DNA of 64,000 nt from Diprion similis (taxonomy: Eukaryota > Arthropoda > Insecta > Hymenoptera > Diprionidae): NCBI RefSeq assembly GCF_021155765.1, contig NC_060112.1, positions 19,468,001 to 19,532,000 of the forward strand, written 5' to 3'. The notes beneath the pieces were generated by a model, which was given only the letters and a program-made list of their open reading frames with translations, was not told where the DNA came from and ran no database searches. Shown piece after piece: positions 15,701-48,305 of this stretch. The position numbers and the translations under genes were made by a program. Numbering within the stretch: position 1 is the stretch's first letter; the number at the start of each line of letters is the position of its first letter.

Positions 15701-16902
15701 AGGTTTCGAGCAGCCCTTCAACAGACTGTACAAAGATTCAAATTCCAATCTTGTAAGCAATTCAATTAGTCGCAAAATGCTTCCAGGACTAGTTCCATAT
15801 TACTGGATACGGGTATGTTAGGAGAACATTGATGACAAAGAGGATTTTTTTTAAATTTGATGAAGAAATGTCACCCAGCCAATATTTTCTTTCTTTCTTT
15901 TCTGCAATATAGAAGTTTGTCAGATGAAAGGCTCGTTAAAAATGTCACTTTCAAATGGCAAATCTCAATGTATACATATTTCGAGAAGACCGGAGCAAAA
16001 TGGCGCACTGAAGGCAAGAAAGTATGCTGTAAATTATGTTTATTCAAATGATACTAATCTATTCCTGTTAACTTACAATTGTCAACAAAAATATTTCACT
16101 TAACAAGGTGCAAAATGTTTCTAAAACTACCCAGAAAATTTTACCAGCCAATTCTTGACCGACTCCACTTTTCCCCGATCTCAAATTACAAGGGTGCCAT
16201 TCGCATTCTACGTCACACTGTCTTCGGGCATTTTGTTCCCCCCGCACACTACACATTAACACGCAGTTTTTTAATTACCTATCGACGTTATGTGCCCTAT
16301 TTCGTTCTCGCACCTCCCCCTCTCCTTCGTGCAATTTAAAGTGTGGTCATAATATGACGGATAATATTAATCATCCGATCAACAAACAAATAAATGTGCT
16401 TAAAAAAAGAGCGCTATGTGAAGCTACGAGTGTATTCTCTTAATGAAAGGTCGTGACAGTGAAGCTAACCCCCCTCCTGAGAGCGTGGCGTTACATTTGA
16501 ATGGCGCCTAGGAGAACAATAACGGAATAGAAATAATACGAATAAGAGCTATAAATGTATAAGAAACTGAGCGAGTATTATACCTCAAAATTTTATTTTT
16601 CACTTTACGTAATACAGGCTTGACTTACCCGGCGGGAAACTACAAACTGGGTTAGATTTTTCGGACATTGGATAGTCGCTATAAACGGTGACGGATTATA
16701 ATTTTATTCTTTGTAGATGGTGAAAATTTGGAGTCATGACTTACCGCAGTATTCTCTCTATCAAAAGCCTTCCTAAAAACCCGTTACCGCCAGTAAGCAA
16801 AACGTTGAGATTTGAGTAAAAACTGGAAACTTCACTGGGACCTGTGGCGAGATCGGATGCAGGATCTGACATCATGTCTCGTATATACGCAGCTTGCGAC
16901 AT
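12717..16902 (-). CDS. FAR-B: alcohol-forming fatty acyl-CoA reductase, complete, 525 aa
   Basis: Eight exons: 16902-16745, 15069-14976, 14853-14608, 14517-14372, 14201-13899, 13809-13528, 13381-13124, 12807-12717. Phases agree throughout and the protein ends at TAG 12717. It reduces fatty acyl-CoA to fatty alcohol using NADPH, feeding wax-ester, cuticular-lipid or pheromone synthesis. Visible features are the Rossmann motif TGGNGFLG (37-44), the conserved IHGAATVRFDE segment in exon 3, LKAFVHISTAYSNC across the exon 3/4 junction, the short-chain-dehydrogenase active site YAFSK (224-228), the GWINNVYGATG segment, the C-terminal 'sterile' domain (WRFNNNGVLRL in exon 7), and a terminal hydrophobic segment LISVLCGIIFWLLW typical of membrane anchoring. 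Length is normal for insect FARs. Substrate chain length cannot be told from sequence. Confidence 0.95.
15070..16744 (-). other. Intron 1 of FAR-B
   Basis: A 1.7 kb intron between the GTAAGT donor after exon 1 and the CACAG acceptor before exon 2. I see no nested gene and no clear repeat in it. Confidence 0.7.
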
Positions 16903-17030
16903 TTGAACGTGTGATATCTAATGGATGAGAACAGAACAAGATTTACTAGTGTGGATCAATTTTTATTTTTTCCATGCGCTAGTGTTACACCCAAGTTTTG
17001 CACTCAATGGCCACACTATCGTTCACATCC

Positions 17031-17632
17031 ACCTTAAGGGGGGGAATCATACTTATATTTGAAAGTTTTTTCAAAGAAAATAAAAACACTTAAATCAATT
17101 TGAATCTGAGGGCCCTATTATTCACAGTTTCAAGAACATTTCAGAATTTTTTCATCGAAATTGATAACAAAATAGCGATATGGCGCACATATGTAGCGAA
17201 CGATCACGTTTTCAATTCGGTGTCACAGATTCCTGGGTCAGTTTTTATCCGATCGACTTGAAATTTCGACAAATATTTCAAACATGTTGATAGACTCAAC
17301 GTCGTGGCTATATTTTTGAATTCCAATCCCAAAATTTTTTTACATAATTTTTTTCAGTAATATTATGGTCAAAAAATGTAATTTCTTTGTTCATAATCAT
17401 ATGCATTTGAAAAAAAGTTTTTTAACATTTGGGCTACGAGGTCGGACCCGAAAAGGTGTTTATAACTCAAAATAATTTTTCTATTTGTTACGCTAATGTT
17501 CTTGAAACTATAAGTAATAAAGCCTGTGAAATCAAATTGCCCAAGTATTTACATTTTCCTCAAAAAAGTTCCTGAAATGAGGGACGATTTTAGGCTGTGC
17601 AAGCTGTAACCCCCCCCCCCCCCCCCCCTCAC
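17031..17632. mobile_element. MITE-like element with G-run/C-run termini
   Basis: The left end reads AAGGGGGGGAATCA and the right end, reverse-complemented, reads a long G run then TTACAGC. The sub-terminal parts match in inverted orientation, for example ATTATTCACAGTTTCAAGAAC at 17116 against ATTACTTATAGTTTCAAGAAC in the reverse complement near 17505. The right end contains a run of about 20 C at about 17610-17629. No intact ORF. Confidence 0.6.
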
Positions 17633-17792
17633 TCCACCCATAAGTTAGAAAAAACTAATTCAAGACTTAGATCATTTTGCAACATATATTTTTCATTTAA
17701 AATATCAGCAGACTGTATAAAAAGTGCTACAATTACGAACAGCTGATTAAGCATCAAACATTTTGAGGCGCATTTTACTGTGATTACTTGAA

Positions 17793-18846
17793 ACGAACGA
17801 TCTTCAAAAGTGTCTTGAACGTCGTGAGTCCAACTTACACTGGTGAGATGCTCAAGTCACTCAAGTTGATTTTCACCCCAAATTCTCGTTTTTTCGCTGT
17901 TATCTCCGAAATGATCAACTTTACCGAAAAAATGTTCACGCAGTGCCTTATAGGGAAATAATTTCGTTATCAGAAAAAAACATCAGTGATTTTGTGAATT
18001 CAAACTCGTTATTCACTTTTGAACAATTTGATCTTCCTCGTGGATTTTTAAATACAGAACCAAGTACGTGGGAAACAAATCTTGATTATCAAAAATGTTT
18101 CGACACATTCAAAATGTTGAAAGTAGTTAATGATACCGCCGAAAGAGGAGTGGCACTCACTGAAAGTTTTAATGAAGGTTTGATTCTAACAAATTTCAGA
18201 GACAAAAAATTTTTCAAATTGTACAGAATCATCGCTCTCAGTATACATCGTGTATAAAATCACAATATCTTGATAAAAAACAAATTCAATGATTAATATC
18301 TAGTAGCTATTCTCATTAATAATGTATTGCTGTTACTACAATTTAGACATTTGTTATTTGTTTAAGTTTTTATTCGATTAATTGTTTATCATATATTACT
18401 TATATATATAAATTTGAATGTACTCGTAATTTTGATAGCTGAAACAGCTGGATCATATTTTCCAAGTTTCTTCAAATCCGAGCTTCGTTACTATAGGTGA
18501 TTCATCTTTTCCCACTATCTCAATTTCGGAAAAGTGATATTGACTTGAAAATATGGTGATATGATATGCAATATAAATAATTTAAAACGTTTGATTCAGT
18601 AAACCATAAAAATTTTATGCTACAAACAAGTAAAAGTTCGATATCTCACGAAATATTAATCTGAGCATTCAAGTCTAGAGGACCTTTTTTGTAGAAAATT
18701 AAATTTCCAACAAAATTTTTTTTTACATTTTTTCGGTAAAGTTGATCATTTCGGAAATAACAGTGAAAAAACGAGAGTTCGTTTATGTATTACACCAGTG
18801 TAAGTTGAACTCACGACGTTCAAGGCATTATTGAAGATCGTTCAAT
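17793..18846. mobile_element. Inverted-repeat element carrying a remnant ORF
   Basis: The arms at 17793-17940 and 18722-18846 are imperfect inverted repeats (shared GAACGATCTTCAA, TTGAACGTCGTGAGT, CCGAAATGATCAACTTTACC). Between them, 17943-18257 encodes about 104 residues on the plus strand ending in TAA. The segment MLKVVNDTAERGVALTESFN resembles the C-terminal part of an uncharacterised, multi-copy arthropod protein linked to mobile elements (motif VNDxAERGV, from memory). The usual downstream part after this motif is not recognisable, so the ORF looks truncated. No transposase catalytic residues were seen. Confidence 0.6.
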
Positions 18847-19297
18847 TCTGCGTAAATTGCGACCAAGACCAATGTGATATCATAAAATTCCGCTGAGTTG
18901 TAGAGATTTGAAAAAAAAAACGCTTCGGTTCACGTGTATTTTATATGGGAAATCTTTTCACACCCTGGGCGAGTACTTAATATTAATATTAATGGCTATA
19001 ACTTTTAGGGAATTTTTTGTTCGACATATCGAACAAATTTTAGATGGGGACTGTAAAAATAATAGTCGTTCAAAACAAATCACCCTAATGAATATATGTG
19101 ACCGTTATGGGATTGTGATGGATATACCCAAACAGCAGCGGGGGAAGTCAATGGCGAGAGTACCTCTTGATTACCGAACCGTACTGCAAGAAGCTCCACG
19201 TACAACTGACGAGGGAAACCCGCCGAGTGGAAATGAAACCTCTCCGATACAGTCGCAACATCACAAAGTGGAAGAAGGGTAAGAGTACGGGAACAGC

Positions 19298-20010
19298 AAG
19301 GCGGTCCTTGAAAAAGTAACTTTTCAAATTTTGACCGGCTCGCCCTCCGAATTGGTACATAATTCAAAAATAATTCACCAATTTTTTCACATTTTTATTT
19401 CAACTATAATCGGTGTCCCAAAGAAGATGGGTGTCATTCAATCCTTCCCCGGGCGTATTAAATCTACCCAACGGATTTAGATGGTTTTGGAAATTTGGTG
19501 TAAGGGGGTTTCTTGGGTTGCTGATCACGAATCTGAATTCAAAATTTGAAAATTCGAAATGGCAGATGCAATTTGGTGAATCGAAATCCAAAGAGTCATT
19601 TAATTTTGATGAAACTCGGTACTCGGGGGATTTTGAGGTCGCTGATTACGAATATGAACCCGAAATTACAAAGTTCAGAATGGTGGATCCAATATGGCAA
19701 TATCAAGTGACTTTTGGAGTTTTGTTTCACCATGTTGGATCTGTCACTTTGAATGTTCACTTTTGAATTCAGATTCGTAATCAGCGATCCAAAGAAAAAA
19801 ACTCCGATACCAAATTTCATCTACATCCGTTCGGTGGATTCGACGTGCCCCTGAAAGGGTTGAATGTGGAAATTCACACTCTTGGGGGCACGGATTATGG
19901 TTGAGATAAAAGTCTGAAAAAATTAGGGAATTAATTTTGAATTACGTGGAGCCGATTTAAGGGGCAACTCGGTCGAAATTCAAAAATGACTATTCTGAGG
20001 ACCACTCTAG
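19298..20010. mobile_element. Large fold-back element with internal 120-bp diverged repeats
   Basis: The ends are inverted: GGCGGTCCTTGA at 19300 against GAGTGGTCCTCAGA in the reverse complement of the right end, then GACCGGCTCGCC against GACCGAGTTGCC. A sub-unit (start near 19492 and again near 19612, containing GCTGATNACGAAT) recurs directly and, inverted, at about 19690-19818. The terminal GGTCCT resembles the element at 8998-9632, suggesting a related family. Open frames on both strands come from this symmetry. Confidence 0.65.
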
Positions 20011-22515
20011 GGGATACATATTATGTCTTAGGTGCAGATACTCGACAGTTATAGATATCATATACTTCCGCGGCAACAAGAGCTAAAGACCAGATAAAAT
20101 TAAACATGAATTTGAACACGCGGCGCAAAAACTCGACGCCGTTGACGTACACTCGCACAGACGGCGCGCGGGCTTACTCATGGACGGACGAGCAAACTTT
20201 TACCGTCAACTACTGACTATCGGCACGAAGCCAAAATACGTGTTCCCTTGTTTTTACCATTTTTTCACCCTGCGATGTTTCGACTGTATCGGAAAGTGAC
20301 ACTCAGCGAGTTCTCTTCGTCGGACAACTTCATGGTTTTAGCGCAAGGCGTCATCGCTATGAATCCAACCGATTCCTATGGATCTTCGCATATGCGCACA
20401 CAATTAATAGTCCCGGTCTGAATTCCATTAATTCTCTTGCATTGATCTCAAGTATTTTTCAAGATTTCATCGTTTATGTAATTAAATGTACACCATTAGT
20501 CAAAACATTACGATAGTCGCGTAAATGACTATTTTGAAGTTTCCCAGCATGCACCATGCCTGTGTTTATTGTAGATTCAAGAACCTGTAGAATGATTCTA
20601 TATGAATAGGTCGATTGAACGGACATTTTTGATTGGGATTTACGCATTTCAGCGAGTGATTTGAATGACACACGAGCCAAAGACCACTCCGAATCAATTT
20701 AAACGAGTGTTACAGCTGAATCAGACTTTTAAATTTATGAAAATATAAACGATTGACGCCGTTATCCGGTTCCTTTGTGAGGCATTCTCAATATTTTTTT
20801 TTTGTACAAGAACGCTGATGTCACCATATGCGTGACACTTTCTTGTATTGAGAATAATGGCCACGTGATGTTATAACGAAGCAATTGTGGCGCGATTTAC
20901 TTATTTGCATGTCCAAATTCCGCTGATAAATGTTCTCCAATAATAGAATTTAGTTGTAATAAAATTTATATTATAAATATGTTTACCGGCAATCGGTCAA
21001 TTCATAACAAAGATTTTTCAAGTGAAAACCTGTTTAGTATTACGATATAAACTTTCGGAAGGAGAAAATTATTTATTTAATTGTCTTTCTTAGATTGAAT
21101 ATTGAATCTCTTTTAAAGTTTCGTTAATCGTAGTTTAGAGTCTTCTTGTTAAATAAAAAGGTTCGATATGCATCCCACACGCAAAACACAAAGTTTACGA
21201 GTGATAATCGGCCATTTGGCCAATCCATTCTGGATTTGCCTTTGTTGAAACCCAAATTTGAAGTGATTATTGTGCAATATGTATCAATGATGCCTGATTG
21301 TTAGTTCGGACAAAGTATGTTATGATTCACTTTTAACGCAGTCCTTTACAAGCTGTCATACCTGATTCACACGTGAATTTCTTGGACAAACAACGTGACT
21401 GCAGGCGAATTCGAATGCCATGATGTAAAGTTTTGTGATAATTAAGTCCAGTTAAAAAAAAACAAAAAACATTTGACCTGGAAACACAAATTATATTGCA
21501 CTCGGGTATTGTTTTAAATCAAGATGATATTTTGCCGTTTCGGAATGCATGGATGCACGTAAAACAACTTATGTATATTCGATCATTCTAAAATCAGTGA
21601 AATAGCGTGATTTCAAGACTGATGCTTCCGTTTATGCATCACACAGGGGTATAATTATCACACTTTCACACATCGGGATAACGTTAGGTTATACAGGTTT
21701 CGTGATGCATCCGGAAATGAAATTCAGAGGGGCGATCACAAAATTTTTGCAACATGTTTAATTTTTTTTTTACAATGCATCGTTTAACTTTTATAGAAGG
21801 TTATTCTCCGTGTGTATGTGTTGAGTGTTTATTTTTTCAATTCATTTCATTGTCAGCTATCAATAAAAAAAATATTTCCGATACTGTAATCAATTATTTG
21901 CGAAGATATCAATTGTAGGCAAAGCGGCTTTCTTTCGTGCAGATAAATAAATGTAAATCGTATCAACAGATCTATTCATGACCGGTTGTTAATTGTCATG
22001 TATCGTATAGGTAATCAGACGTGAATCGTGACTGCTTTTATACACTGCAGAGCGTAGACACTGAGTTTTTATACTTCCAGGATTTCATCGTTCGTACAAA
22101 ATGTCAGTAGAACTTCGTCATTTTCCATGAATTTCATACAGCAGTATGTGTATGCATTATCTCTGAAGAATCGTGAACCCTTTGTCACATTTAATCAATC
22201 TAAAATAACCATTTCAATCACCTTACGGTAGCCTAGAAGAGATTCCGCAATGACACGGGATGATACATTCGTAGCAGCCGAAATTTAATCGTTCAATCAA
22301 GAGTAGGTATTACGAAAATTTCTCTAGTTACATTTTAGAAAAATTCGTACATAATATGTATGCATAGCTACAAGTATCAATGATATAAACAATATGAAAT
22401 CAGCACTCATTGTCAGCCACGTAAAAGAGTCCGATTCTCTTGGGCTTTGATAACAATTTTAAGATTATTTTGGCACGTTGAAATTCTCCTGTAGATAAAT
22501 TGCGATCACCAGAAA

Positions 22516-25500
22516 TTACCATAACCCAATAACTCGTAGTAACGACCATATCAGCCACAGCAAAATTCCGCAGATCGCTGTCAACAGGGTATAGTGAGCT
22601 ATCTTGATCCTGGACAACGAAAAAATAGATAATTTATCAAATATTTAAAACAGGGATGACACATATAACGACAGACATAATGTATTGACGTAAAACTGTC
22701 AACAAACATCCGGAAATAACAATTCGATATTGGAGTGAAGAAATATCGTGAAAAATGATTCATACCTGGTGTATTTCGCTGCCGCTGCTGGTAAAGTGTC
22801 TAAAGGATCCTTCACAAGATATACACGGATACCACGAACGTGACTGTAAGTGTAATCTTCCCAGTTGAGGCCCGCCACGTTGAAGTCAAATACACTCTGA
22901 TCGGCAGAACTTAGTTTATCCCACAGTCGTAAGACGCTGTTGTTACTAAACCGCCACTGTCGTAGCGTAAAATATCTGATCACAGTGCTGAACTTGTGAA
23001 TCCTCTTGTACGCGTCCCACAACCTGTACCAAGTCAATGTGACAAATTGAACATCCAGAAAATTTTGTAACCGATATTCTCGTCTCGCGATTGTGATTTA
23101 CTTATTGCATCGCGTTCATACGGTGAGTGCCACTAAACACACTACATCAGTTTGGTTTGCATGTATCAATTATATAAGAAAAATTGTCGTAGTCTTGAAA
23201 AAATCCTGTTATATTATCATTGTCAACCATTGATACGTAAATAATTCGTGATTGTCTTATACTGTAAATTTCTTACACAGGTTTTCGTCCGGTGAGTCTA
23301 GCCAAACTGTCCACAATGATAGCAGGAAGAAGGTGACAAAAAACCACGTAAATGTTGTGCAGCCAACTATACTTATTAAGTCTCAAGAAGCGAATCCATA
23401 CGGTCACCAGGGATGGTATTTCCAGTCCCAATTTACTAGTATGTTTCATAAATTGTCCCCAGGTAATGGGTTTCTGGCAGGATGAAACGGAGTTATAAAT
23501 CGGCACCTCTTCCGTCTCCGGGACCATGACGTTAACCTCATTGTCGACGTTGATACATCTGAAACAACAGTGAAGCCCATTCAGTGAACATTTTACTTAC
23601 TCGAAGTGGACAGACGATAAGAAGTCTTACCGAGTTTTGGCGATATCCCAGGCCGCAACAATGATAGTGTTGACGACGTAGTCTGCAGGAATCATGTCGG
23701 CGACCAGTTCCGGGTCGCAGTGCAAAGTATGCAGCAGCCCGACGGCAACAGCGAGTACAATTCCGGTAGCACCATAAACGTTGTTTATCCAACCAGGCAC
23801 AGGTTCCTTCGCCGTGGCAATTACTATCGACGGTCTTACCATGCATACTGGTAGAGTATGACAGCTACGGCGAACACTATGCTCGGCAATTACCTTAGTG
23901 TAAGCGTAGGTATTCGGCCATTTGCCCAGGAGTCTGCAACGTTTATTAATCAGCAACACACCAAGGTTAAACTAGAGTAGAATCGGTGAATTTTGTGGTC
24001 TGTTTGTACTAGCGCAACAATGGTATCAATCCATATCAATGATAATTTCGTTTCGCAAACTAATTTGAGAACCAAGGTGCATTTTAAGCTAGAAAATCAC
24101 ATCGCTTACACGGGAACCAAGTGCTCCAGGGAAGCGTCGTCCAGTATGTCCAACAACTTGAGTAGTTTATCCCCATCTATTGGTGTTGGATAAAATTTTT
24201 CTTCGACCACTTCTTGAACACAATTTGAGTAAGCAGTTGAGACGTGAACAAATGCCTGAAGCAGGTCAACGGAAAATTATAGAGCAGGATGGAGCGATGT
24301 TTTTTAATGATATTTACTTCGTGACTATCGGAAAAATATGAAATTTTTCTAGAGAAACTATTTGTATTCAAGTTAAACCAGTTTCTGGAATATTCAGTAC
24401 CACCTTAATGGATATATTGCATACCGACCTTAAGATTCTCCATTTCCTGTGCGAGCGATAAGAGTTCGTTGGTCCCCCTTACGTTGATGTTGACGGCGAC
24501 TCGCAAACTTTCGTCGAATCGCACAGTGGCTGCAGCGTGTATCACGATGTGGGTAGTTCGAAGCAACTCTCTGTGCTCTTTAGACAAACCCAGGCCAACT
24601 TGTGCTATATCGCCAACGATCAGCACAACCTTTCGTGAATATCCAGGCTGTTCTTTTCTCAGCCGATCGAACATCTGTAAATATGAAATCTTGTCGATTG
24701 TGATCTCAGTCCTTTTATTTTTTTTTCTGAAATTTTATAGGCAAAATCTTGACGAAACTCACAGTGTCTTCAAAAAGCAGCCTGAGTCTCTCCTCGGGAC
24801 TCTTTCCTTTTTTCGCTCGCAGGAGTACGAACAAAGTTTTTACATCCGGACAGGACCTAGAAATTTTTTCTCAATCATTAGCAACGAGTGTGCTAATTGG
24901 TTCATATCGCAAAACACTTCTTTTACCCAGCCCAGTACGTACAACGAAACAATTGTTCGATATTTATCAGTAATACTAGGAGATTGCGCTTTGAGGATGA
25001 ACGATAAGCAGATACCTATGCTGTTCGATCAAGATCTAAATTATGTTTTTACAACTCGTCGTGTCTGCAATTATTGACAAGAGTTCCAAAGTTCCAAAGT
25101 AAACGTGACACACGAACTACAACATAATTCAATAGATGCAAAGGTGTCGTTGACAAGTCCTAATACATATTTAGTATTTACTTATTGTTATTCATTGTCG
25201 GTATTCAAAACAGTCTTGCATCATGCTTTGAATTTTTATATAAAGAAAATTCCAGCTGAACTAACCCACGATTGAGCTGATGCGTTCAGATTCAGATATC
25301 TGCTTGTGTGTGTGTTTTTATTTTATTTTGGAAACTAAAAAAAATGTGAAAAAAATATTAAGCAGCCACAACGACTTTCTAATTATGGTAGATATGACTT
25401 ATTTTTGACCCAAAATCTGTGGAAAAAATTGCAGAATTTTAAAAATGGTATCTTTTTAGTTATCCCTTTTTTACACAAAAACGATCGTCGCGCCACCTGC

Positions 25501-29887: not shown

Positions 29888-32800
29888 TTAGTCTTTTTGG
29901 AGCATACTTAACGGGTCCTCGACAATTTTTTCGGCAGTTTTTCTCAAATCCCTAGTACCTGCTCTTTTAATCACTCCGCGTTTTTCAACCGACTCCGATC
30001 GACTGACATATGAGGTCGTCGATTTCCCAAATATATCGACGCCTCCCTCGTTATCGTCGTCGTCGTCGTCGAACAGCCCCGAAGACGTCATTGGTTTTTT
30101 AATCACAGTCTTTTTTCGCGCAAACACGTCCTCGTCGCTACTTGACTGATCGCCGAAAATATCTTTCGCGATCTTATTCCCGGTGGAAATTCTCTCTACA
30201 GGCTTCGTTTTACTACCGATGGTGAATATTTCGGCACTATCGTCATCGGAAAATATACCGGAGGTGGTAGTTGCATTTTTAGTTTCAGTCTTCACTTTTG
30301 CCCCTGTAGTTTTTTGGCTTCCTGACGTGTTTTGCTTGCCGATCTCACTGAATATTGATTGACTCTTCGAAGAGGATTCTGTCTTGGTGATTTTCTCCTC
30401 CGTAGTAACACTCTGCGATGATTTTGAGCTAGACTTGTTGGCCAACTTTTTCATAGCGCCGCCAAAAAGATCATCGTCCTGGTTATCGTCGTCGGTAAAA
30501 AGATCGATTTTCGATTCTTGGTGGGGTTTTCTAACGGACTTTGGTAGTGCCGTGGTAAAAAAGTCTGCCTCCGAATCCTCGGCGAAAAGATCAAGGCTCT
30601 GTTTTTTTGTGGTTGACGACGTTGTTCTACTTTTATCAGTTACTTTCAATTTGCCATGTTCCGATTCCTTTGAGGAACTACTCGAGAACAATCCATCGTC
30701 GTCGTCATCAAACAACAGATTCTTACCCTTTTCGGGCGACGGAGTTTTCGTTACAAATGGGAATAAATTGCTCGGATCCTTCAGGGGATCGTGATTACCG
30801 TCGCGGAGTGGATCGGTTAATTCCTTTTTCTTTTCTTCCTGTTTTCTAACCCCGCGAGACTCCGCCTTGCTTTCGACCCCCGAGTCTTGTTGATCCTGAG
30901 ATTTATCCCGTGAGTTCGCTTCACCAGCAGACTCTTCATCTCTGATTGATGTATTTTTAACCGCACGTACCTCTTCGCCTGTGATCGGTTTCTCCCGTTT
31001 CTTAACATCTTCTTTTTTCGTATCGGTATAAGAAGATTCATTAGTAACGACTTGTTTTGACGACGATTCGAACTGATCGCTGAACACGGCCGTCTCTCCC
31101 TTCTCACTAAGCGTCCGGTTCTTACTTTTAGAGGTTTCGTGTTTGGCGGTTTTTTCAACTTTCACGAAGGACTCGACGGGCGAAAGAATCGGGGCCCTGC
31201 CAAAAAGGTTGTCCTCTTTCGGCGGATCCTCGGGGAGATCCGGAGGTACGTCAAAGAGGTCTTCCTCGTCGGTAGAAGGCGAGAGAAGCGTGTTCTTGTT
31301 CATGCTCAACGTGCTTTCTTTGCTAAAACTGATCTCCGAGCGATCGTCGAGAAACGTGGATGAGCTTGAATCGGTCACTCTGACGCTGACACTTTCGCTT
31401 ACGCCTCTAGAAGTGGTCAACCTGTCGTTGTTCGAATTAACGATATTTTCAAAGTTCACCGATTTTTCCGTAATAGACGGATTATTGTTTTCACTGTTAG
31501 AAGACAAGTTTCGATTTGTTTCGGAATTGTTATCGGTTGCGAAGTCTACGCTGTCGAAATCGATGCCGCTTTTGCGAAGAGCGTTCTGACGCGCGTGTCT
31601 ACTTTGAGGGCGTCGTTTCGTCTGGATCCGGACTCGACTCTGCAACAGATAATTGCCATGGTTACCAATGATAAAAAAAACGCTACAATTTTGACTGAAT
31701 CTGGAGTCTCAAGTTATCATTCAAAAGGCACTTCAAAGGAAAAATCAAGAAAATTATTTTACTTCCATAAGAATATCAGTGGAAATCGTGTCTGGTACAC
31801 CTATTGGACGTGCTTCCGGCTATGATCAAGTATTCTAAAAGTACCTCGTTCAAATTAACTCACCTTAGACGCGGTGACGCTCAGTGTTTCGACTTGGACT
31901 GGTTGATCGAAGCTGATGGCTGGCTCGATTTCCTTTTGGTCGGTGGGCGAGAGGAGTGGAACAGCTTTGGACGGTTCGTCTACAATTAGACAAAAGATTC
32001 GTTGATTAATTGCGACAAATTGTAGAGTGCGTGAAAATGCTTGCACAATATTCTGTGTTGAAGAATTTCCGCTTACCTGCGGGCAGTGTAGGTGTAGGAT
32101 TCTTCCTTGACGTGCTCGAGCAGCTGCCATCCGCGCTGTCCTTGTCCGCGTCTTCTTCTACTCTGTCTTCGTTCTTTCTCCAAACCGGGGGTGAGTCGGT
32201 CGGGGACAAGATTTTCAGATCGCTCATTCGCCCCATCAAATTCTTTATTTTTCCCGAAACAACCCGACGCTGAACGGCGTTCGGTTTTTCACCCGATCGT
32301 ATTTCCAGTGTTTTCGGAGGTTCTCGTTTTTCCTCAATGGAGGAAATTTCTTCCGACTTGAAGGACGTCGAGGACGTTGCTTGTTCGGTATAAATATTAT
32401 CAGACTTGGAGATTGTCGACGACATTTCTCCCTCCGAAGAGGAAATTCTTGTTTCGGATTCGAAACTTTTCACCGAAGATCCCTCCGACACCGTTTTAGT
32501 TCCCTCGATGATTTCAGATCTGATTTCCGTCGATTTCGACGAGGCAACATCTATTCTTTGATTCAATTTCTTAAACACCTCGGGTTTCTTCGCGATTCCA
32601 GGCTTCGCGTCCGCTTCGAGAAGTTTCGACTTCTGAACTGTTTTAATCTCGTTCAATATCTTTGTGGCGAGATTCTTGGATTTATTTATCGAGGAAATAC
32701 CATCCCCAACGTGTTTACTCAGCGTGGAATGCTCTTCTTCTGCATTTATCGTCCGTTCAACGTTACCTCCAGCGACTGGCGCTTCGCTTCCGCTCTTCGA

Positions 32801-35800
32801 CTCCACATCTGTTTTCTCTACGGTCTTTGCCACGTCCAACTTAGCCGCCAGTTGTTCCATCACTTTGGATTTAATCTGGCCTCCGATCTTCGCCCCCGAT
32901 TTCACCACCGTCTCTGACGAGGCTTCAATTTTCTTCAAGGACGAAGTCACTTCCGACTCACTTCGATCAAATTTTCTCGTAGTTTGCGACGGTGCAGCGA
33001 ACAGATCCTCCGCACCATCGTCAAACAAACTCGGTGCCATTTTCCTCTGACTCTCCGATATTTTCTTACCAAAACTAGGAGCGAACAAATCGTGGTCATC
33101 CAGATCATCGAATATACTACCAATGTTCGTGGCTGTCGCGGTCTGCCGAGTCTCTTTGCTACTGACTTGTTCCGATTTTTCTTCATCTTTGCTCGAGACG
33201 ACCGACGCTTCTTCGACAACTTTCGAAGCGAATAAATTCACATTCGACGAGTCTTTGCCAGCGGAAATGCCACTCCCGAGTTCATCCGCGTTTTCGTTCT
33301 CATTCTCGTCGAACAATCCTTTATTCTTGAAGATATTGGGTTTGTTGGAAGGTCGCGACGACGCCGTTGTCGTGAGAAGATCGGTGCTTTTTTGTGAGCG
33401 GGATCCAGAGCTGATGTTGGAGAAAAGGTCGTCGTCGGAATCAAAGTCATCGAACAACGAGGCCACCTTAGATTTTCCCTCGGTCTTCGACCCGGCTTTT
33501 GGCAGCGGTGGAGGGCCGAAGATGTCGTCGTTTTCAAGAAAAATATCGGAGTTCTGAACTTCCGTTGGGTCGGGTGCTTCCTCGATTCGGGCATTGTTCG
33601 GTGAATTCTCACTGTCACGGCTGAGCGTTTTTGCCGCGAAAAGGCTGTCGCTAGCAATCCTTTCTCGATACATGTCTCCGGTCTTATTCCAAGTCGACGT
33701 CATCGCCGGCTGGAAGTTAGGGCTGAAAGCATACCAAACATTGCGGTATTAAATATCAAAATCCTTAATTAAAAAAACTATCTGAGCTGAAGAAATTTAA
33801 TAGGTATAAGGTATGTATTTTATTTTTACTGGAGTCCCGAGATATACCGTTGACATAGATTTGTAAATCGAAAGGGAAAAAGTAAGAAGTACTGCCAGTA
33901 TATTGCGTCTTGTCATTCTAACGACTTGGCAATCACTTTATGTATGTACCTAATTCGAACGGGTGCCAAAATATTTAGGAAACAAACGCGGCGTACTTAA
34001 AATCTAGCTGTGGCGTCAGTGACCGGCACCGCGTACAGTAATAAGAGAATTAAAAAAGATCTAAATCTAGGTCAGAAGTAGGTATTGTAACAATTTACGA
34101 ATGGTGATAAATTTAAAAGAGAAATAAATAATAAAAAGACAAGTATACGTAGTGGATAAAAATGTATATTACCATCATTCATTTATTTATAAAAACATAT
34201 TAAAAAAAAAGAGTTTACAAAACAAAAATGCAAGGGTCCCTACTCGTCGCAAGTCCACTGACCGGACTTGTTAGTCTAATGAAGAACAAATAGACGGCAC
34301 AAAAATGTATAAATTAAAATGTAGAACACAAAAATAAATAATATAAAATCGGACAATAGTCGTCGAAAGATAAATAAATATAAAACGATAAAACGGAAAT
34401 AAATAGATAAAATTGGATAAAACGGAAGGTAGAGCGATTACGTGGGTTGCTGAGTTGTGGGTGATAAAATGTGATTTAATTATTCCTTTCTAGAAAAATT
34501 TCGTTGTCAATGGGGGGCTATCGATTATTACCTGATCAGTATTTATTAAATATCACTTTCCGAACGTTTATCACTCCCCCACCGACTCTAACCTTCGACG
34601 ATCGTAGGCCTACTAACTACTTCGCTGTTCCATTCTATCCTTCCATAAGTCTGTTTACTATTTGAAATATAATACATCATCACAGTATCTATACTTGAGA
34701 TTTCTTGAGCAGCGCGTGTTTTCTAAATACGTATCGAATTATCTAGAATACCGATTTTCTTTTCAACGCAGCAATTCTACTTTACAACAGACTATCGGTT
34801 GGAGAGAAAACGCACTGGATTTCTTGAAGTAGGCATATGCGAAATGACTCACCAATCCACGCAATTTATTATATTACTAAGCCTCATCTTTGCCGATGAT
34901 GCTGTGCGTGAAGAGTATAATGGAGATTAAAGGTCAGAAAATAAACCGGTAAGTGACATACGTCGCACCGTGAGACGGTAGTTGAGAATATATTTCGACT
35001 CGATCAGCGACGCCTTTTGAGTAGTTTCGTGACTCACGTGGTCGTGATCCATTCAATAATATTCCCAAAATAAATATGAGCGATAAAATGCTTATGATAT
35101 TTACAATTATCGGATGTATACTCGTATATATAAAAAGGAGAATTTCAAAACTATACAGGTATGTCATGTACGTACGTATAATGATTTTTGACACATCCCA
35201 ACTTTACAAGAACTGAAAGAGAACTAAAACTAACGGTTCCGTCCGCTGAATTAGCAAAGGAAATGTCTAAATCCAAACTAACCAGAGCGCAGCGAAAACG
35301 TCTCTTGATAGACTAGAAGAAGGATGTAAAAGTCGGACAGCTGCGCTTCGTGATCAGAGACGTGTCGCACGCAAGTGTGATAACTCCCTCGTATCCTTGA
35401 TTTTCGGCCACTTTCGCAGTCACCAATGAACCGTGCAGTTTTGCGATGCAAATACGAGATACGTGATATGAGTCGAAATTGAACGGTGATTATTAATATC
35501 CTTCCAACAACGAGGAAAGAGAATCAAAGTAAAATTGAACCTGGGTAAAATGAACTGCGTAAAAGTTCACGCGCAGTCGTTTTCGTCTGGTGAGCAGTCA
35601 GAAAGTAACTGAGAGCATTTTGAGAAATTCTACGAAACGGCAGACGTCAGGTGTGGAGGTTTTCCTATCGCCCCTGAGATCGAGCTTGCACAATCGTCTC
35701 CGCAAAAGCGCTGGCCGACTGCCAAAACGTATATACTACAGATATACAAAGGACAACGACCAGACCGCTATCATATACAGATTTGTAGAGCCGCAGCTGC

Positions 35801-38800
35801 GCGATCGTATCGGATTTAACATGCTTTTTATTTATACTGAAGATCTGATTTCTTGCAAACAATCCAGCGAGCCCCGCGGAATTATTGCGCTTTCTAGAAA
35901 TTTAAAAAAATTGTTTTTGTTCAAGAATACGTGTATAAAAACTCAGCTCATTGTCAGATCTGAGATCCGGAGCTTGTAAACAGTTCTGTTCTTTGTGTGA
36001 ACACATATTTTTCTGCAGTTTACTCAGCGAACATCGCATGCTGATGCAAGTACCGCGCAGTAACGATAAGTATTAATTACATTGTAGCTCTAATTAATCA
36101 GCTCTTAAGTAAGTGGCTATAAATTAATTCAGCGTTGTGTTGGTTTTATAATTGATAAGTAAAAAATGTTTCAGAAACCCGTGAAATTCTTGCACGATAG
36201 TGTTGCACTTGGAGAATGAAAACCGGGCCTACCTCAATTATTACTCTTGTCGTCAACTTTAAAATCAATCTTGTAAAGAACAATAATTCCCAGATTCTCT
36301 TCCTTCTTTCGTCAATTTTATATGGAATAAATTTCTCAGCAGAAAAGATACTTGAAACGTTGAAAAAATACGAAATAATTCACGATATCGGTAAATGGTT
36401 ACGACAGGGTTTACCAAATGTTACATAACGATACACCGATCAACGTCAATCGTATAGTTGCCCAATAATTGTGATCCACTAATCATGAGACCGCACAAAG
36501 GATAGTGAGAAGAATAATAATAAGATAGTGGAAGATTTTCAAATAAAATGCCGCTAATATTGATATACCTCCAAAGCAAATGGGATTCGCTCGACTTTCG
36601 AATGCCAAATGACAATAAGTTTTCCAAGAACTGCATAAAAATCAATTTTCGATTTTTATCTAGAATTTTTCATCCAACTGTTCGACTAACGTATAATTAC
36701 TCAAAACGAATTTTACTGCTTCAACTATTACACATGAACGATAATCCTTCCCCATTATCTTATGGACTTTATGTTCGCAGTGCACGTATCGGTAAGGAAT
36801 ATTTATAATTATTGTTTTGTATCAATGCTATTTATATTATACATAATAAAAATGATCTACTACTTTCTTTGAGAGGCGATAAAAGTTATTAGAGAAAAAA
36901 TAACACTAATTTCGAAGGTTCTGCAGTAAATTTTTTTTCACGTTACAAATGGCTTGGCTGAATTGAAAAGTTGACGATATCATTTCTCTTGACCATTATT
37001 TTTAGATTTCCTGCCATTACATAGAACGATGCGGGAAAATAGCCGATAGATCATTATCGTCGATAGGCTAATAGAGTGTGACATGATTTAAAAATATTAT
37101 AAGTGCCTATAACTATTCCAAGATGTGGTAGTCCAATAGATAGTCCAATTCTCTATTTCATAATAATTTTTAACACCATTATCTGCATCTCTGCTGCTAG
37201 TATTTTTTAACACTACCAGATAAATATTAAAATATTAAACGTCAAGTGAAATTTCGAACATTTTCTGTCAAGATTTTATGGTGATCCCGTGAACAGATTG
37301 AATTAATGCACAGCTCCACATAGAGGGGCTTCGCCAGTTATAATTACGACAATGTTGTTATCGACGTAATACCCCCATGCGTTTAAAAGTGGAAAAGATA
37401 AACATTATTAATGCGACATTTGTGTGTGTAAGAACAATGGAAACTTTCGAGGGACACGAGCCATTTGAAGAAGTTTGAGGGCAAACGTTTGAGATTCTGC
37501 ATGAAAAAAGTTACTTCTTCATCGTCGAGATCACCACCATGAAGATCCTGCAATTGGCAACTGTGATTTGTGTTTTACTACAAGTCCTCACAACTCTTTC
37601 GGCATTAAGTGAGTCTATTTTACAAACATTACGTGATACTGCGTATATATTCCATCTACAAGATTTCAGTTTGACAAGTAAGACAAAAAGAAGTCCTGTT
37701 GTCAACCAAATTCAAAATTTTGTTGAAATTCTACAAAATCCCCATATATTATCATATAAGAAATTGAAAGTAGATACATTATCATAGTGATTTCTCAAGA
37801 TATAACAAAATAACCTGTCATGATGAGATTTTAAAAAATTTGAGAACCTTCAAGTCTCGCTAGCATGTCGATTATTCAACATTTGCCCTCACGAAACCGA
37901 TAAGTATGATTCGACTTCGCAGCATTAAAGCAAGGAAACGGCAAATTACGGATAATCAAAAGATAGTGACAAATAATGCAGAAAAAAATCATCAGGCTTA
38001 TGAACAATACAATTATGAAAAATGGATATTTGAGCCCATATTAGTGTATTTACGGTACTATCGGAAAAAAGCATCTGATGCACTATAAGAATATTTTTAG
38101 TGGTTCTGATTTATACGTTACACATTAACCATATGCAGTATTGTTAATTGTAAGCTGGATGACTTTTATCGTGCCAATCATAATGCAATTATTACAGAAA
38201 ACGTATGCAAACACAAAAGAAGACAACTGACACAGGGACAAAGCCTGACGGACTGCTACACAATTACAACCTGCAACGAGGGGGGCGTTTTATCGCGAAA
38301 AGAGTCGTGAGTGTAATAATAATAATAAGAAGACCAAGAATAATGATAATAATGATTTCTATTATACAGCTCCAAGTTTGAATGATAAAGCTTTCGCGGC
38401 TAGGATTCCTATTCCTACCACCTCGAGTTACATTATCATATCGCAAAAATACTAATAATGAATTTTTCTCTACAACAGATGCCCGAGGTACATCTGCGCT
38501 CATCATTTACGCGGCTACAAACATTTCGATCACCGCAAGCCTTATCCCGAATGTTGCGGGGGTCCCATTTGCGACGATGTTTATAAATCTTACTATTACA
38601 TACCCTAAGGGGTGAGCGATTGAGTCAAAGTTAAGTGGGTAAAATATCTTTAGATGCAAAATTCAAGTTGAAATTTTACTGTCGTTTAACTTATTTCTGT
38701 ACCTGCGAATATAACCATTCTATTGATTACTCATATCTATTCAAGTACTCATGGCCGTTTACTGTTTAGATGTAAGCTGTGAACTTCAAGCATGGGAATT

Positions 38801-41800
38801 CTTCTAACCGAATGAAAGACGGTTGGTTAATTGTCAAACTAAAAGTATTATTGCGACCGGATGAGCGAAATGCATTCTCATCGGGTGTATGATTGAAATA
38901 TTTGTTTGACGTGAACCTTCAACGTCTTGTGGATTCGATTGTTTATTTTCCTTTACTTTCTTTTGAGTTTTCATTTTTTCTAAATACCACGAGCTATCTT
39001 ATCGACTATCGGATAACAGTACGAGCTAACGTTTACACAACAATTCACATCTCCCAAAAAGCGAGATGTGAGAATCGATGAGAACGCGAGATTGAACCTA
39101 TCGGCGCTCTGGCCACACTGCCGCCCGTATAATACATGCTGATTTCTGACAGACTTTCGTTATCTTGCATAAGCTGTATTGATATTTCCACTCACCTATG
39201 GGTGTGATAAACAAAACGTGTAGAGTGAAGAAAAAAAAATATAAGTAAGAGTGCATTATTTCAAACAAATTACGATACACACTGCAGATAAAGAAGTTAT
39301 ATGAAGTGTTTTAATTTGACAAGTGCACACAATTACGAGATATCAGCAGATTTTTTTTCTTCATCTCGACTTGTATTTATAAAAAAAATTTAGAACGAAT
39401 TTCGATACGCGAAAATTTGGAAAAAAATTCAGTTTTTATGCTAATATCACAAGCGACAGCTATGTCACGTTTGCACAATTAAAACGTCTTTGTGGGAACG
39501 TCGGTAGAAAATAATTTCTAATTACTTGAAACATCGCATTTGCTGTGGAATAAGTTTCTATTCAATAATCTGTGAGTAATATAAGTTTGGTTAAAAAATA
39601 AATCAGGAGTCTCATCATTTCCGATAATTTTGCGCAATATTGCAGAGGAACGTAGCTAAAATACACAGATAACAAGTCGATACGTACGAATTATGATTAG
39701 TTTTGGCAAACGATCCACTTGGAACGAAGAGAAATCAACCGAAGGTGAGTTTATGCGAGATTTTGTAAACAAACCTATGGATGTTGCTTTGAAGTGAAGT
39801 ACAGTATTTTATGGCCGCTTAGATGACGCAGTTTATCATCATCTGTTCTCTCGTTTTAAATAGTCCCGTCTCTTTTCACCGCACAGAATCCTACGACCTT
39901 TGAAAATTTTCGACGGCACAATCCACCGATCTTCACCTATTGCAAAGCGCCTCACTACTTATAAGCTTTTAAAATATTGCGTACAAGGTGTAGATAATTC
40001 TGTCCGTATATCTATTGCAGAGCACTGGATCGACGACTGCCAGTATTTAGTGTTTGAGTCATTTAAGGAACCAATCTCACTCACAATCGGAATATATCCT
40101 CACAGCCCGTCACACACGCCTATCTCCGACCGACCTTGTGCAGGTCTCTTCCTTGTATAATATGCGCGTCGCGATATTCTATTAGAGTATTTACGACGTA
40201 GCTGCGGATGTATTCTGGCGAAAGTGTTTACGACGTGGAATCCCATGTGCAATACCTACGACCGATGATTATAAACCGCGATGGATCGGACCGTTTTCCG
40301 TTTCCCTAGAAGTTAAGATTTGCCACCTATGTTACTTCACGCCTTCGGAAATTCTAACTCACGGGAGCGAGGTTTAAGATTTTTTTTTCCACTTAATAGA
40401 AACGATCTTGATTCAATCTGTAGAGACAGTGAAAAAATTACTCTCGCTGTTGCTGATTGAAAACAATATTAACTGACCGTTCCTTCAACACAGGAAAACG
40501 CGACAGACTGTTGAATTCAGGAAAAACAGTGACTTGGAATACGGAGAACCTATTCGAAAGCATACTAGACTTGTTTCATCGACGTTATACTCGGAATACG
40601 TGTGAAGGAAAAAATGGGCCGAATTGGCAATACCGTCTGCAGAAACCGTTCAGTTTCCAATTTCCCGCACTTACAGTTGCAGACTCTTTTAATTACTGTA
40701 ACTTTTCGAATATGTACTCGTAGCGCGAACCAATTAACCTACTTGCAAGATCTCTTCGGTAAGCTATTTCTAGACTTGCTTGACTGCACGTTCGGCCGAT
40801 TATAAATGTTTGTAGAATTCGCAGCCGCGTTCCACAATGATGCAGCTCTACTTTCTTCGTCGACATCTTCATTTTCTCCCTACCGGTAACAGAATTTTTT
40901 CTCGTTATAACGCTTTGACTTAAAACTTTTAACAAAATTAGTTAAAATCACCTTACATTTTAAATTCTTTAAAAATTTTTCACGAATTTTTAAAACAGAA
41001 CATATTGTTATTCCTAATCCCGATATATTTTGGTTACCGGATATGGTGACTTTACGTTCTGAATAACAACGAACAACTTTAATTAATACAATTCAATACA
41101 CGTAATCGGACACTGCGTGCCGCGTAGTTGAGTGTAAAATATCGGCCAAACGGGCATAATTTTAGTTTCAAATACGCGCGTACGAATTCATTGATTACAT
41201 CAATGTACGGTGCGTTCGGTTACCGAGAATCACATGAGAAGATCATTTACATACTGCCAGTAATATAATCGCTTAGACACTATTATTTCGGAATTGACTA
41301 GTATATAAGGGTGAAATCATTATCGGTTTTAAATTATCTCTCGTTATTGTTTCGCTAGGTCAACCATCTTCAATGTTGTTATTGCTACTTGATTCCGAAT
41401 GACCGCATTATGTGTACTGTCACGCGTGTTTTTGTATGCGCAATATAGTAGTTCAGTAAAACAGCACGGATATGACGTTTGATTACGTATATGATATGTA
41501 GATGGTATAAATTAACTTATGCGTTGAAATTTTGAGGTGATTTCAAGAGCCTTGCTTCAAGGAGACTAGTCTGGAATAAAGTCGACTCGGAACAGAATGG
41601 TTTTTTTTTATACAAACATTCTCCACACTGCTCAATTATACAATAAACACTGCTGACGGCATGCTAAATTCTGGTGAATAATAAACCGTATGCAACCAAC
41701 CTTATATTCGAGCCCGCTGTAACGTCATCCACACTCGGTGGCTGCAAGGAGATACCGCTGCTTTCTCTACTCTCTGTATTTCGAGATATCATCACCGGAC

Positions 41801-44800
41801 TCCCATTACTAGAATCGTTATTTATCACCGAATTGGCGTCATTTCTCGTGTTCGTTGCTCTACTGCGTGGGATTTCAAAATCGGATGATGACTGACTGCT
41901 ACAGGATTCACTCGACGGCTGCCGACGTAGCTTTTCTGAAGCAAGAATATCGATCTGCCCAAGGATAGAAACTCCACCCACTGGTTTCTGCAATAATTAA
42001 AAAATGGATTGTCATTACGACAGAAAAATACTTACAGAGAAGTTCAGCATGGATATCATTTAAAGTTAGACACTTTTTCGACAGATCAAACAGAATTATC
42101 TCATTTTACTCCGATCACAATTCTCATAAACGTCATGACATCGTCGTTATTATGACAAGGAAGATTTTCTTCAGCTTATTTTTTTTCTAATATAGGTACA
42201 TTGATAACGTACAGTAATTGGTTTAGAACACACCAAAACGGTTTGATGAGGGAAACACAGAAAATTGAAGCAAGGTAGAACAATTAATGCAATCTAAGAG
42301 TGCATCTTCAGTGCGATCGTACCTTTTTACTACTGGTGTTGGATGCTGCTGCGGGTGTCGAACCAGTACTCTTGTCTGTAATACTCGTCTTGGCTGCGGT
42401 CCAATATGATCAACAGAATTCTAATATTAACTCTGGTTATTTATAGCTTTATAGTACAGCGAAGTTTGCTGGTATTATTCAAGATTTGAATAAAATTTGG
42501 AGAAATTTCAAAATATAGGCTTGACTATAAATAAGCTTGAAAAAATTAGCGGTATCACAAAATACCGCTTGCGTCTGTTTTTCAGGCAGTAAAATAGAGG
42601 AAATCCTTAATTATTGCTGTTTGATCAGATGCTGATTCGCAAAATTTTTCAACTATATGATAAATATTACCGTTGCGATTGCTTTCTCTGCTGAAAAGAT
42701 TTCCCTCATCCTCTGGTTCGTCACCAAACAGTGAATTAACCATGTCATTTGTTTCAGGCGTACTTGTTGCCATTCCTTTTTTTTCCATGATCCTACTCAC
42801 GGACAATAAGTTTTTACTTTTTGGTTTATCTTCTGTGCGAAGGCTGTTTGTTGGTGAATTTTGTTGTTTATAGGGCTTGCTTGTTGATGGTTTACTCGAA
42901 AATAGACTATCCGAATCTTCTGAATCCGCATCACCAAATAGGTCGTCAATTGCTGATTTTGGTTTGGTTGCTGGAGTTGGTAATGATGCAATGGTTGGAT
43001 GTGGATTATTCGAACATAAGAATGAGTAAATTAAAATAACATGAAAAAACCGAATTTTTATCAGCTCTGCAAACTTGACTTGAATCCAAAATATTCTGTA
43101 ATATCGAATGCGAACTTACCAACAGCACTGATAGGCGGTGGTGCATCAAGCGATGAAGGAATGATGGAGGATTGCAAGGGGTCATCAAGCTTGTTGCCCC
43201 ACAAAGAGTTAGGCGATTTTTCAGAGAATAACGACGTTGGTTCAGTGAATAAATTTTTGTATGGTGCACCGAACAAGTCTTCATCTTCACGAGTAAAGAG
43301 ATCATCTGTCAGGTGTAAGTGGGGTATTCATTGTATATTATATTTGTATTCACCAAGCTCTTGATGTACTCGGTAATAAAAAAACATGATTGATTGTAGT
43401 TTTGTGATGTATCATGAATTTGTGGTGAAGTACTACCTTCAGGCTGAGTTGCAACGGGTTCCTCGATGACTTGAGCATTTATAGATTTTTCTGTTGGAAT
43501 AACGTTCCCCAACCTTTTAGCCAATTCCTCTGCAAAATTTGGTGCTCCGCTGATAGAATTCTATAATCATAATTAACTTTCAAGGAGTTTTGCATCTGAT
43601 ATGCACTGTAAGTGTAGTGTGTTGGCAATAAATTACGACGTAAAAATTAAATCACGTAGTGGTGAAAAATTCGTATTGGAAAATATATTACTTTGGGCAA
43701 ACTATTTGCAGCTGTGGAGCTTCCATTATCTGAACCAAATATGTCTTGGTTATCATAGGATCCCCTATCATCAATGTTTCGCACCGCATTATTCATTGCA
43801 TTAAAGTCGTTGGATTCGCTTGACGACGAAGACAGTCTCGCTATTCGTGGTTTGTGCATGTTAATTTGTTTCGGATTTACAGCCGTGTCATCGTCTGAAT
43901 CACTTTCAGATTCATCTTCCTCCTGGTGCTCTGAGTCGCTACTGCTAGTCTCCAAACCTATTTTACTTGAATTTTTCCATTTTTCAGAGCCAATTACGTA
44001 AGGCAACGGACGATCCTGGTATGGATCCTTTGGTCTCAATATGATGCTGTTGAAAATATAAGTTTCATAGTGAAAATACCAGTCATGAGTAACGATATCT
44101 TGTATTTTTGAATGGTGTTTTCAAACCTTGGAATTGCAGTCTCTCCTTCATCTTCGCTATCACTAGCAATGACTTCCAATGTTTCGTATTTTTCTTCCAT
44201 TATCGCGATTCCACGCCGTACAGTCTCACCTATGCTTGCTATCAGTTCTGCATCTAACTGTTCTTTAGTTTTTGGTACCTGATGAAATTTATCAGATTAA
44301 TTACTGAGATCAGCTCTTTTCATCAGACAGATTTCACTTCAATAGAACAATAACAATACACAATGGACAATAAAAATAAAACAAAAAATAAGTCTAGTGA
44401 AAAAAATTCAGTCTTGCAGACTTACCTCCAGCTGTTGTTCCTTCGGTGGTTCAGCTTCTATTTCATCCTCGCAGACTCTACTCTCGATAAATTGGGTGTT
44501 GGCCAGAGCTAGTGACGTGTTAGTTATATTATCTATGAAAATAATTGTTTCGTCAAGCTCTGAACTGAACGAGTTTAAGGCTTCCTGCGTCTTGTTTGCT
44601 TTTGTCATCAGCTTCTAAAGGAAAAAAACGAAAAATCATGCAAAAATTGTTATTTTTTTTATTAAGAATTCATTCTATTGTTAAGAAGCCAGGCTACAGT
44701 CTTTATCGAAGTGAAATCTATGAGGGAAATGTTTTGAAACGATAGATATAAAGTATTGAATTTAAATAAGACCGTTTACTAAAAACAAAGTAAAAATTGT

Positions 44801-47563: not shown

Positions 47564-48305
47564 ATGAACCATTCCGGAAGTGGGAAGCGGCAGGCAAAGG
47601 TTTTGGAAGACAACTATTGGGACTGCAGTGTCTGTACCTTTAGGAATACAGCTGAAGCTTTCAAGTGCCTCATGTGTGACGTCCGCAAAGGAACCTCTAC
47701 GCGGAAGCCCCGCATCAATCCTCAACTAGTAGCTCAGCAGGTTGGCAATCGTTGTAACAAAATTTATTGACCTCGAATGAAAACATAGAGACGCCATTGT
47801 CTAATTGTGTGAATGTATCAATCTGTATGCGGAGTGAATTACACATTACAAAGTAACGGATAAGAGTATTCTGCAGTAAGCGAATACATTATACCCCGAT
47901 TTTATTTACCACTGTAACATATTGGAATAATAACACTATATATGAATGTACTATTTCGATTCACAGGCTGCTCAACAACAATACGTACCACCCTTAAAAC
48001 CAGGTAAAAAAGAGGGTGGAAGCGGTAGTAGTACTACCAGCAGTGGAAAAGACAAGGAACGAAAACTGGATAAACCAAGACGCAAGAACTGGCATCCACC
48101 TCGTCTCAAGAACATTGACCGGAGTACAGCACAAACTAAAGAAGTCACTGTGAATAATGTTACCGTTGTCATCACTGAATACAAGCCAAAAGTAAAGAAG
48201 AGTTCCGACCAGTCCGGCCTGTCGAGCAGTGCGTCTTCTGAGAATGGAAGTCAGCACGATTCTAATCAGGATTCTAGAAGCCTTGACATAGGAACTGATG
48301 CCTAG
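47564..48305 (+). CDS. RYBP: RYBP/YAF2 family Polycomb protein, 171 aa
   Basis: Two exons, 47564-47740 and 47967-48305 (TAG), join in phase 0 at CAGCAG/GTTGGC. The start is supported by an in-frame TGA at 47558. RYBP bridges RING1 and other factors in variant PRC1 and binds ubiquitylated H2A in the nucleus. Residues 19-46 hold the RanBP2-type zinc finger, with Cys21, Cys24, Cys35 and Cys38 in [17 protein letters not shown], followed by the invariant [20 protein letters not shown]. The C-terminal half has a lysine-rich linker (residues 70-100), then [12 protein letters not shown] and the beta-hairpin [16 protein letters not shown] (about 119-134), which contacts RING1B in the mammalian homologue. 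It ends in a serine-rich tail. It is shorter than human RYBP, as in other insects. It is divergent from WASHC2 and converges with PWP1. Confidence 0.95.

Follow-up and report, generated by a model that had tools for sequence, protein, structure and literature searches.

The window analysed here, a stretch of 64,000 nucleotides from Diprion similis that corresponds to C8:19468001-19532000 of the searched genome, carries on its plus strand a short gene of the SVWC family that appears to be intact and looks real on present evidence. We consider it probable that this three-exon gene lies nested antisense in an intron of a WASHC2-type gene and encodes a short secreted peptide of the immune type. 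The elements of the gene are the following:

37539..37608, plus strand: exon 1 of the SVWC gene, 70 nt, with the start codon and a hydrophobic leader (23 codons and 1 base) and the phase 1 donor A/gtgagt
37609..38197, plus strand: intron 1, phase 1, 589 bases, with the acceptor ttacag/A
38198..38306, plus strand: exon 2, with domain cysteines 1-3 and the phase 2 donor C/gtgagt
38307..38478, plus strand: intron 2, phase 2, 172 bases, falling within the codon that immediately precedes domain cysteine 4, with the acceptor caacag/A
38479..38608, plus strand: exon 3, with cysteines 4-8, the motif YPECCGGPIC and the stop TAA
38206..38572, plus strand: genomic span of the SVWC domain (Pfam PF15430), residues 27-91, divided by intron 2

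All three exons were found at the positions given in the first-pass annotation, with canonical GT-AG splice sites and joins in phases 1 and 2, and they form a coding sequence of 309 nt including TAA that specifies 102 amino acids. The reading frame holds no stop and no frameshift, and an in-frame stop precedes it at 37476. The earlier description of a three-cysteine exon followed by a five-cysteine exon was borne out as well: besides a cysteine at residue 11 in the leader, eight follow it, at residues 27, 43, 49, 61, 66, 85, 86 and 91, with YPECCGGPIC at the end. It had also been remarked that such exons hardly stand out as ORFs, and indeed only one (37479-37787) of the 56 stop-to-stop ORFs of at least 100 aa contains an exon in frame, exon 1. 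Across its six frames the window contains a single instance of the cysteine pattern of the last exon, C-x(2-4)-C-x(6-30)-P-x-CC-x(1-4)-C, and none of 60 Markov order-1 windows of equal length contains any. The putative leader reaches a mean hydropathy of 2.7 over its best 12 residues, and the predicted mature peptide, some 80 residues long if cleavage follows residue 22, contains 13 K+R, 7 D+E and 5 H.

A DNA search of the genome with 1601 bases, in which common words were skipped, revealed no other copy of the gene; the only matches elsewhere were five pieces of 42-49 bases, all from the AT-rich stretch of intron 2. That stretch (38308-38356) resembles a TAA repeat and matches contigs C6, C9 and C10 at 84-93%.

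The profile search by which the joined protein was to be checked according to the first-pass annotation gave a match to SVWC (PF15430) from end to end (residues 27-91, profile positions 1-66 of 66, E 5.3e-4), but its 20.6 bits fall below the cut-off of 27, and taken alone the match is suggestive of SVWC. No other Pfam family rose above chance in the 102 residues, the nearest being Rieske (E 0.17) and VWC (E 0.57), and in the PDB no sequence matched the protein. It shares with the family a putative leader, eight cysteines with an adjacent CC pair, a single domain and the match to the full profile, whereas it differs in its score below the cut-off and in the division of the domain by a phase-2 intron.

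At the level of sequence, what decides for SVWC membership is the presence of relatives in the same genome. The search of the genome with the predicted protein gave 10 matches, three to the gene itself, four on C7 and one each on C14, C12 and C4. The one at C4:16101885 (E 0.448, 29%) was put down to chance and dropped, because no cysteine pattern was found at that place. The other loci could be modelled as follows:

C7:799618-800044, tandem cluster: SVWC relative, three exons, phases 1 and 2
C7:808145-808564, tandem cluster: SVWC relative, three exons, phases 1 and 2
C7:808999-809418, tandem cluster: SVWC relative, three exons, phases 1 and 2
C7:809855-810299, tandem cluster: SVWC relative, three exons, phases 1 and 2
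C12:13198691-13198273, minus strand: SVWC relative, three exons, phases 1 and 2
C14:11545610-11546354: SVWC relative, three exons, phases 1 and 2, six cysteines

The gene-model finder required intron 1 in phase 1 and left intron 2 free; it returned no model for C12, C14 or the locus at C8:21.75 Mb. The C12 and C14 models were read by eye and then checked, and the first exons of the C7 copies at 808999 and 809855 were read separately. In all six relatives, as in the window gene, a phase 1 intron follows the leader and a phase 2 intron lies directly before domain cysteine 4. Exon 1 measures 70 nt in the window gene and in five of the six relatives, and 73 nt on C14; exon 2 of the C14 gene has only 34 nt, and its predicted peptide therefore has six cysteines instead of eight. 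Since separate loci share intron positions, phases and domain, a chance resemblance or a wrong join of exons is very unlikely. The loci make up a small class, dispersed and partly tandem, with the common plan of leader, cysteines 1-3 and cysteines 4-8 separated by introns in phases 1 and 2. Four short SVWC genes of this kind stand in a tandem cluster at C7:799618-810299.

A profile built from five relatives (C14 and the window protein excluded, first 20 residues removed) recognized the mature part of the window protein with 44.4 bits and the full protein with 41.8, while none of 500 plain and none of 500 cysteine-keeping shuffles reached 44.4 bits, the best scoring 13.5. The spacings between the eight domain cysteines, adjacent CC included, are 15, 5, 11, 4, 18, 0 and 4 in the window protein and 13-14, 4, 10-11, 4, 17-19, 0 and 4 in the five eight-cysteine relatives, so that C2 and C3 stand 5 apart here and 4 apart in those relatives. 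Identity of the window protein to the relatives is 27-38%. When the seven sequences are aligned, all of them have D77, K80, YP, PIC and six of the eight cysteines, but the first two domain cysteines in the window protein are out of line with those of the relatives.

Low Pfam scores are found among the relatives too: three of the six exceed the cut-off (29.3, 32.5 and 29.5 bits), two stay under it (22.4 and 24.1), and C14 has a weak match to the end of the profile (13.5, positions 51-66 only). The matches of the other relatives begin at profile position 17-19, and thus omit the first cysteine. The window protein scores below five of the six. In the gene tree it sits on a very long branch beside C12 (support 81/66), a placement too weak to build on. 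A Pfam SVWC search of the raw genome (269 Mb, 60 contigs, E up to 1) gave three matches, at C8:17.37 Mb (48.6 bits), C8:21.75 Mb (19.4) and C7:0.81 Mb (18.3), and none in the window; because this search did not list the window gene, split short SVWC genes can be said to escape domain searches of raw DNA. The second of these matches (C8:21750538-21750684, minus strand) has an SVWC-like tail with another cysteine spacing and gave no gene model, and was kept out of the class. With several such genes in the genome, the window gene is an addition to a known family and nothing strange: an ordinary further member, nested like many genes.

The nesting itself is supported as a model. The features of the host are these:

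29888..31708, minus strand: 3' ORF of the host, with a weak match to CAP-ZIP_m (WASH complex subunit)
32006..33722, minus strand: host coding sequence that follows the intron, an ORF with repeated acidic LFDD-type motifs and no Pfam match
33723..41700, minus strand: modelled host intron, 7,978 bases, with a phase-2 donor AAG/GTTGGT (exon end 41701) and a phase-2 acceptor TTTCAG/CCC (exon start 33722)
41701..41935, minus strand: host exon that precedes the intron, entered in phase 1 and left in phase 2

Host ORFs with acidic LFDD-type repeats run along the minus strand between about 45 and 30 kb, and these motifs, together with the likeness at the N-terminus, are what we take to mark the host as WASHC2/FAM21. 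One of the five host ORFs matched CAP-ZIP_m (PF15255, E 0.002), with 18.9 bits against a cut-off of 28.2; two host ORFs compared with the PDB, and three more compared with Pfam, gave no match. Judged from its sequence the host looks like a WASHC2-type gene. Splice scores and phases fit an exon 41935-41701 followed by one that starts at 33722, and therefore an intron of 7,978 bases that holds the SVWC gene; an alternative phase-0 splice pair (41796 and 33709) fits as well and would enclose it too. The earlier claim of a gene nested on the opposite strand within a WASHC2 intron thus stands as a model, carried by the weak PF15255 match, the host ORFs and the matching splice phases. Such nesting is widespread: intronic genes account for about 6% of Drosophila genes, according to the abstract of PMC3786989. 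None of the SVWC matches listed in our literature search described a nested SVWC gene in its title or abstract opening, and in a search on SVWC gene structure, introns and Hymenoptera the single domain von Willebrand term was absent among the matches listed.

Elsewhere in the window, an ORF with a RYBP/YAF2 motif (47946-48305, plus strand; PF17219, E 4e-21) adjoins the host gene. Fatty acyl-CoA reductase-type ORFs (Male sterility protein, PF07993) occupy 13895-24734 on the minus strand, at 13895-14245, 23627-23971 and 24405-24734, and are possibly tandem genes; the ORF at 13524-13829 had no Pfam match.

The promoter motifs of the SVWC gene told little. Reported SVWC genes carry NF-kB-like or IRF sites in the promoter or 5' UTR, according to PMC13115929. 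In the 1 kb upstream of the window gene no kB-like site (GGGRNYYYYY and its reverse) was found, an absence that says little because only about 0.3 would be expected from the mean rate of the window. The STAT motif TTCNNNGAA occurs once in that kilobase, where the mean rate of the window is 0.44 per kb; TTCNNNNGAA (window mean 0.47 per kb) and the TATAWA box (1.8 per kb) do not occur in it. TATAAAA is present upstream of two C7 copies (799618 and 808145). Comparison of the 200 upstream bases with those of five relatives (C7:808999 excluded) was at chance for four of the five, with 138-261 of 500 shuffles scoring as high, and gave 28 of 500 for C12. Beyond the stop codon the nearest AATAAA is 989 bases away.

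The SVWC family is restricted to arthropods, as a 2026 paper states (PMC13047442), and the insect and crustacean members so far studied are described as signals that activate JAK-STAT via integrins, as microbe-binding receptors, or as both (PMC13115929). If the window gene is transcribed, the leader would be removed in the secretory pathway, and a basic mature peptide of about 80 residues may fold on four disulfides and, once outside cells, serve in haemolymph or in an epithelial secretion as a binding peptide or signal of the immune type, like the studied insect SVWC proteins. The basic charge would suit surface binding, and to suppose a role in defence is reasonable as a guess. In the house fly, WHIS1 / MdSVWC are likewise short SVWC peptides, listed with a response to or action on bacteria (PMC13115929). 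By description, WHIS1 has about 100 residues after the leader against about 80 here, and its pI of 7.52 may be set against the 13 K+R and 7 D+E of the window peptide.

The same secreted peptide might, on the other hand, serve a use outside defence, in cuticle or body shape, reproduction, saliva or venom, an alternative that we regard as doubtful although it has precedents. The Drosophila gene grooveless (CG31997) is needed for the thoracic groove, and SVWC peptides are described as common in arthropod venoms (PMC13047442 and PMC12758981). Grooveless has an SVWC domain and an export signal, features also predicted for the window protein, but by its description is 147 aa long with a role in body form (PMC13047442). 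No particular tissue is indicated by the sequence, and in the review table of PMC13115929 all entries but BmSVWC1 have a response to viruses or microbes, in a review that covers immunity.

It appears improbable that the gene is the Vago orthologue and, like Vago of flies and mosquitoes, encodes a cytokine that viruses induce and that turns on JAK-STAT in other cells. Vago is an SVWC protein, and one is known from a bee (BtVago); the window protein has in common with DmVago, CxVago and BtVago the SVWC domain with its eight cysteines and a predicted secretion. However, it has 102 aa and BtVago 153, and the genome has its strongest SVWC locus elsewhere, at C8:17366927 (48.6 bits), with the domain unsplit; the lack of a kB-like site upstream adds a weak point on the same side. 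Of the first-pass label of a Vago-like defence gene, SVWC has held, while Vago and inducible antiviral find no support of their own, given the Pfam score under the cut-off, the best SVWC locus elsewhere and the known SVWC roles that are not antiviral. At that other locus (C8:17366918-17367151, minus strand), the best Pfam SVWC match of the genome, the whole domain lies in one open frame of 143 aa with an alanine-rich tail, possibly a Vago-type gene judging from its sequence; it barely matched the window protein, with E 0.036 over 14 residues out of register.

A decaying or never-transcribed old duplicate whose exons stayed open by chance might account for the long branch, the Pfam score below most relatives and the upstream sequence not shared with four of the five relatives compared, but is very improbable given canonical splice sites, a frame free of stops and frameshifts, and eight cysteines and the most strongly conserved residues retained at such low identity. 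A viral link was also considered and is without support, since a scan of viral contigs with one last-exon peptide pattern picked out 9 stretches and no confirmed relative.

The tandem copies at C7:808145 and C7:808999 offer a view of how members of the class diverge. They differ at 0 of 70 positions in exon 1, 1 of 150 in the introns and 18 of 200 in exons 2-3 (exons 2-3 against introns, Fisher P 0.0005). The changes mostly alter amino acids (15 against 3), although with so few sites dN 0.076 and dS 0.052 cannot clearly be told apart. In the 3' flank 10 of 250 positions differ, more than in the introns, which counts against a pure exon effect, and in the 5' flank 110 of 300 do so in a gapless comparison, which may reflect misalignment. 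Besides diversifying selection, gene conversion affecting the front half could explain this pattern. We tentatively entertain the possibility of an expanding split-domain SVWC class with near-fixed leaders and introns and a diversifying mature part, as in antimicrobial or venom peptides; the window gene would then be its most diverged, basic member, put in the WASHC2 intron by an old DNA duplication and since under a control of its own. If the class does consist of rapidly diversifying secreted peptides, it would bear on the question of separate jobs for SVWC subtypes, which a 2026 review poses as open (PMC13115929).
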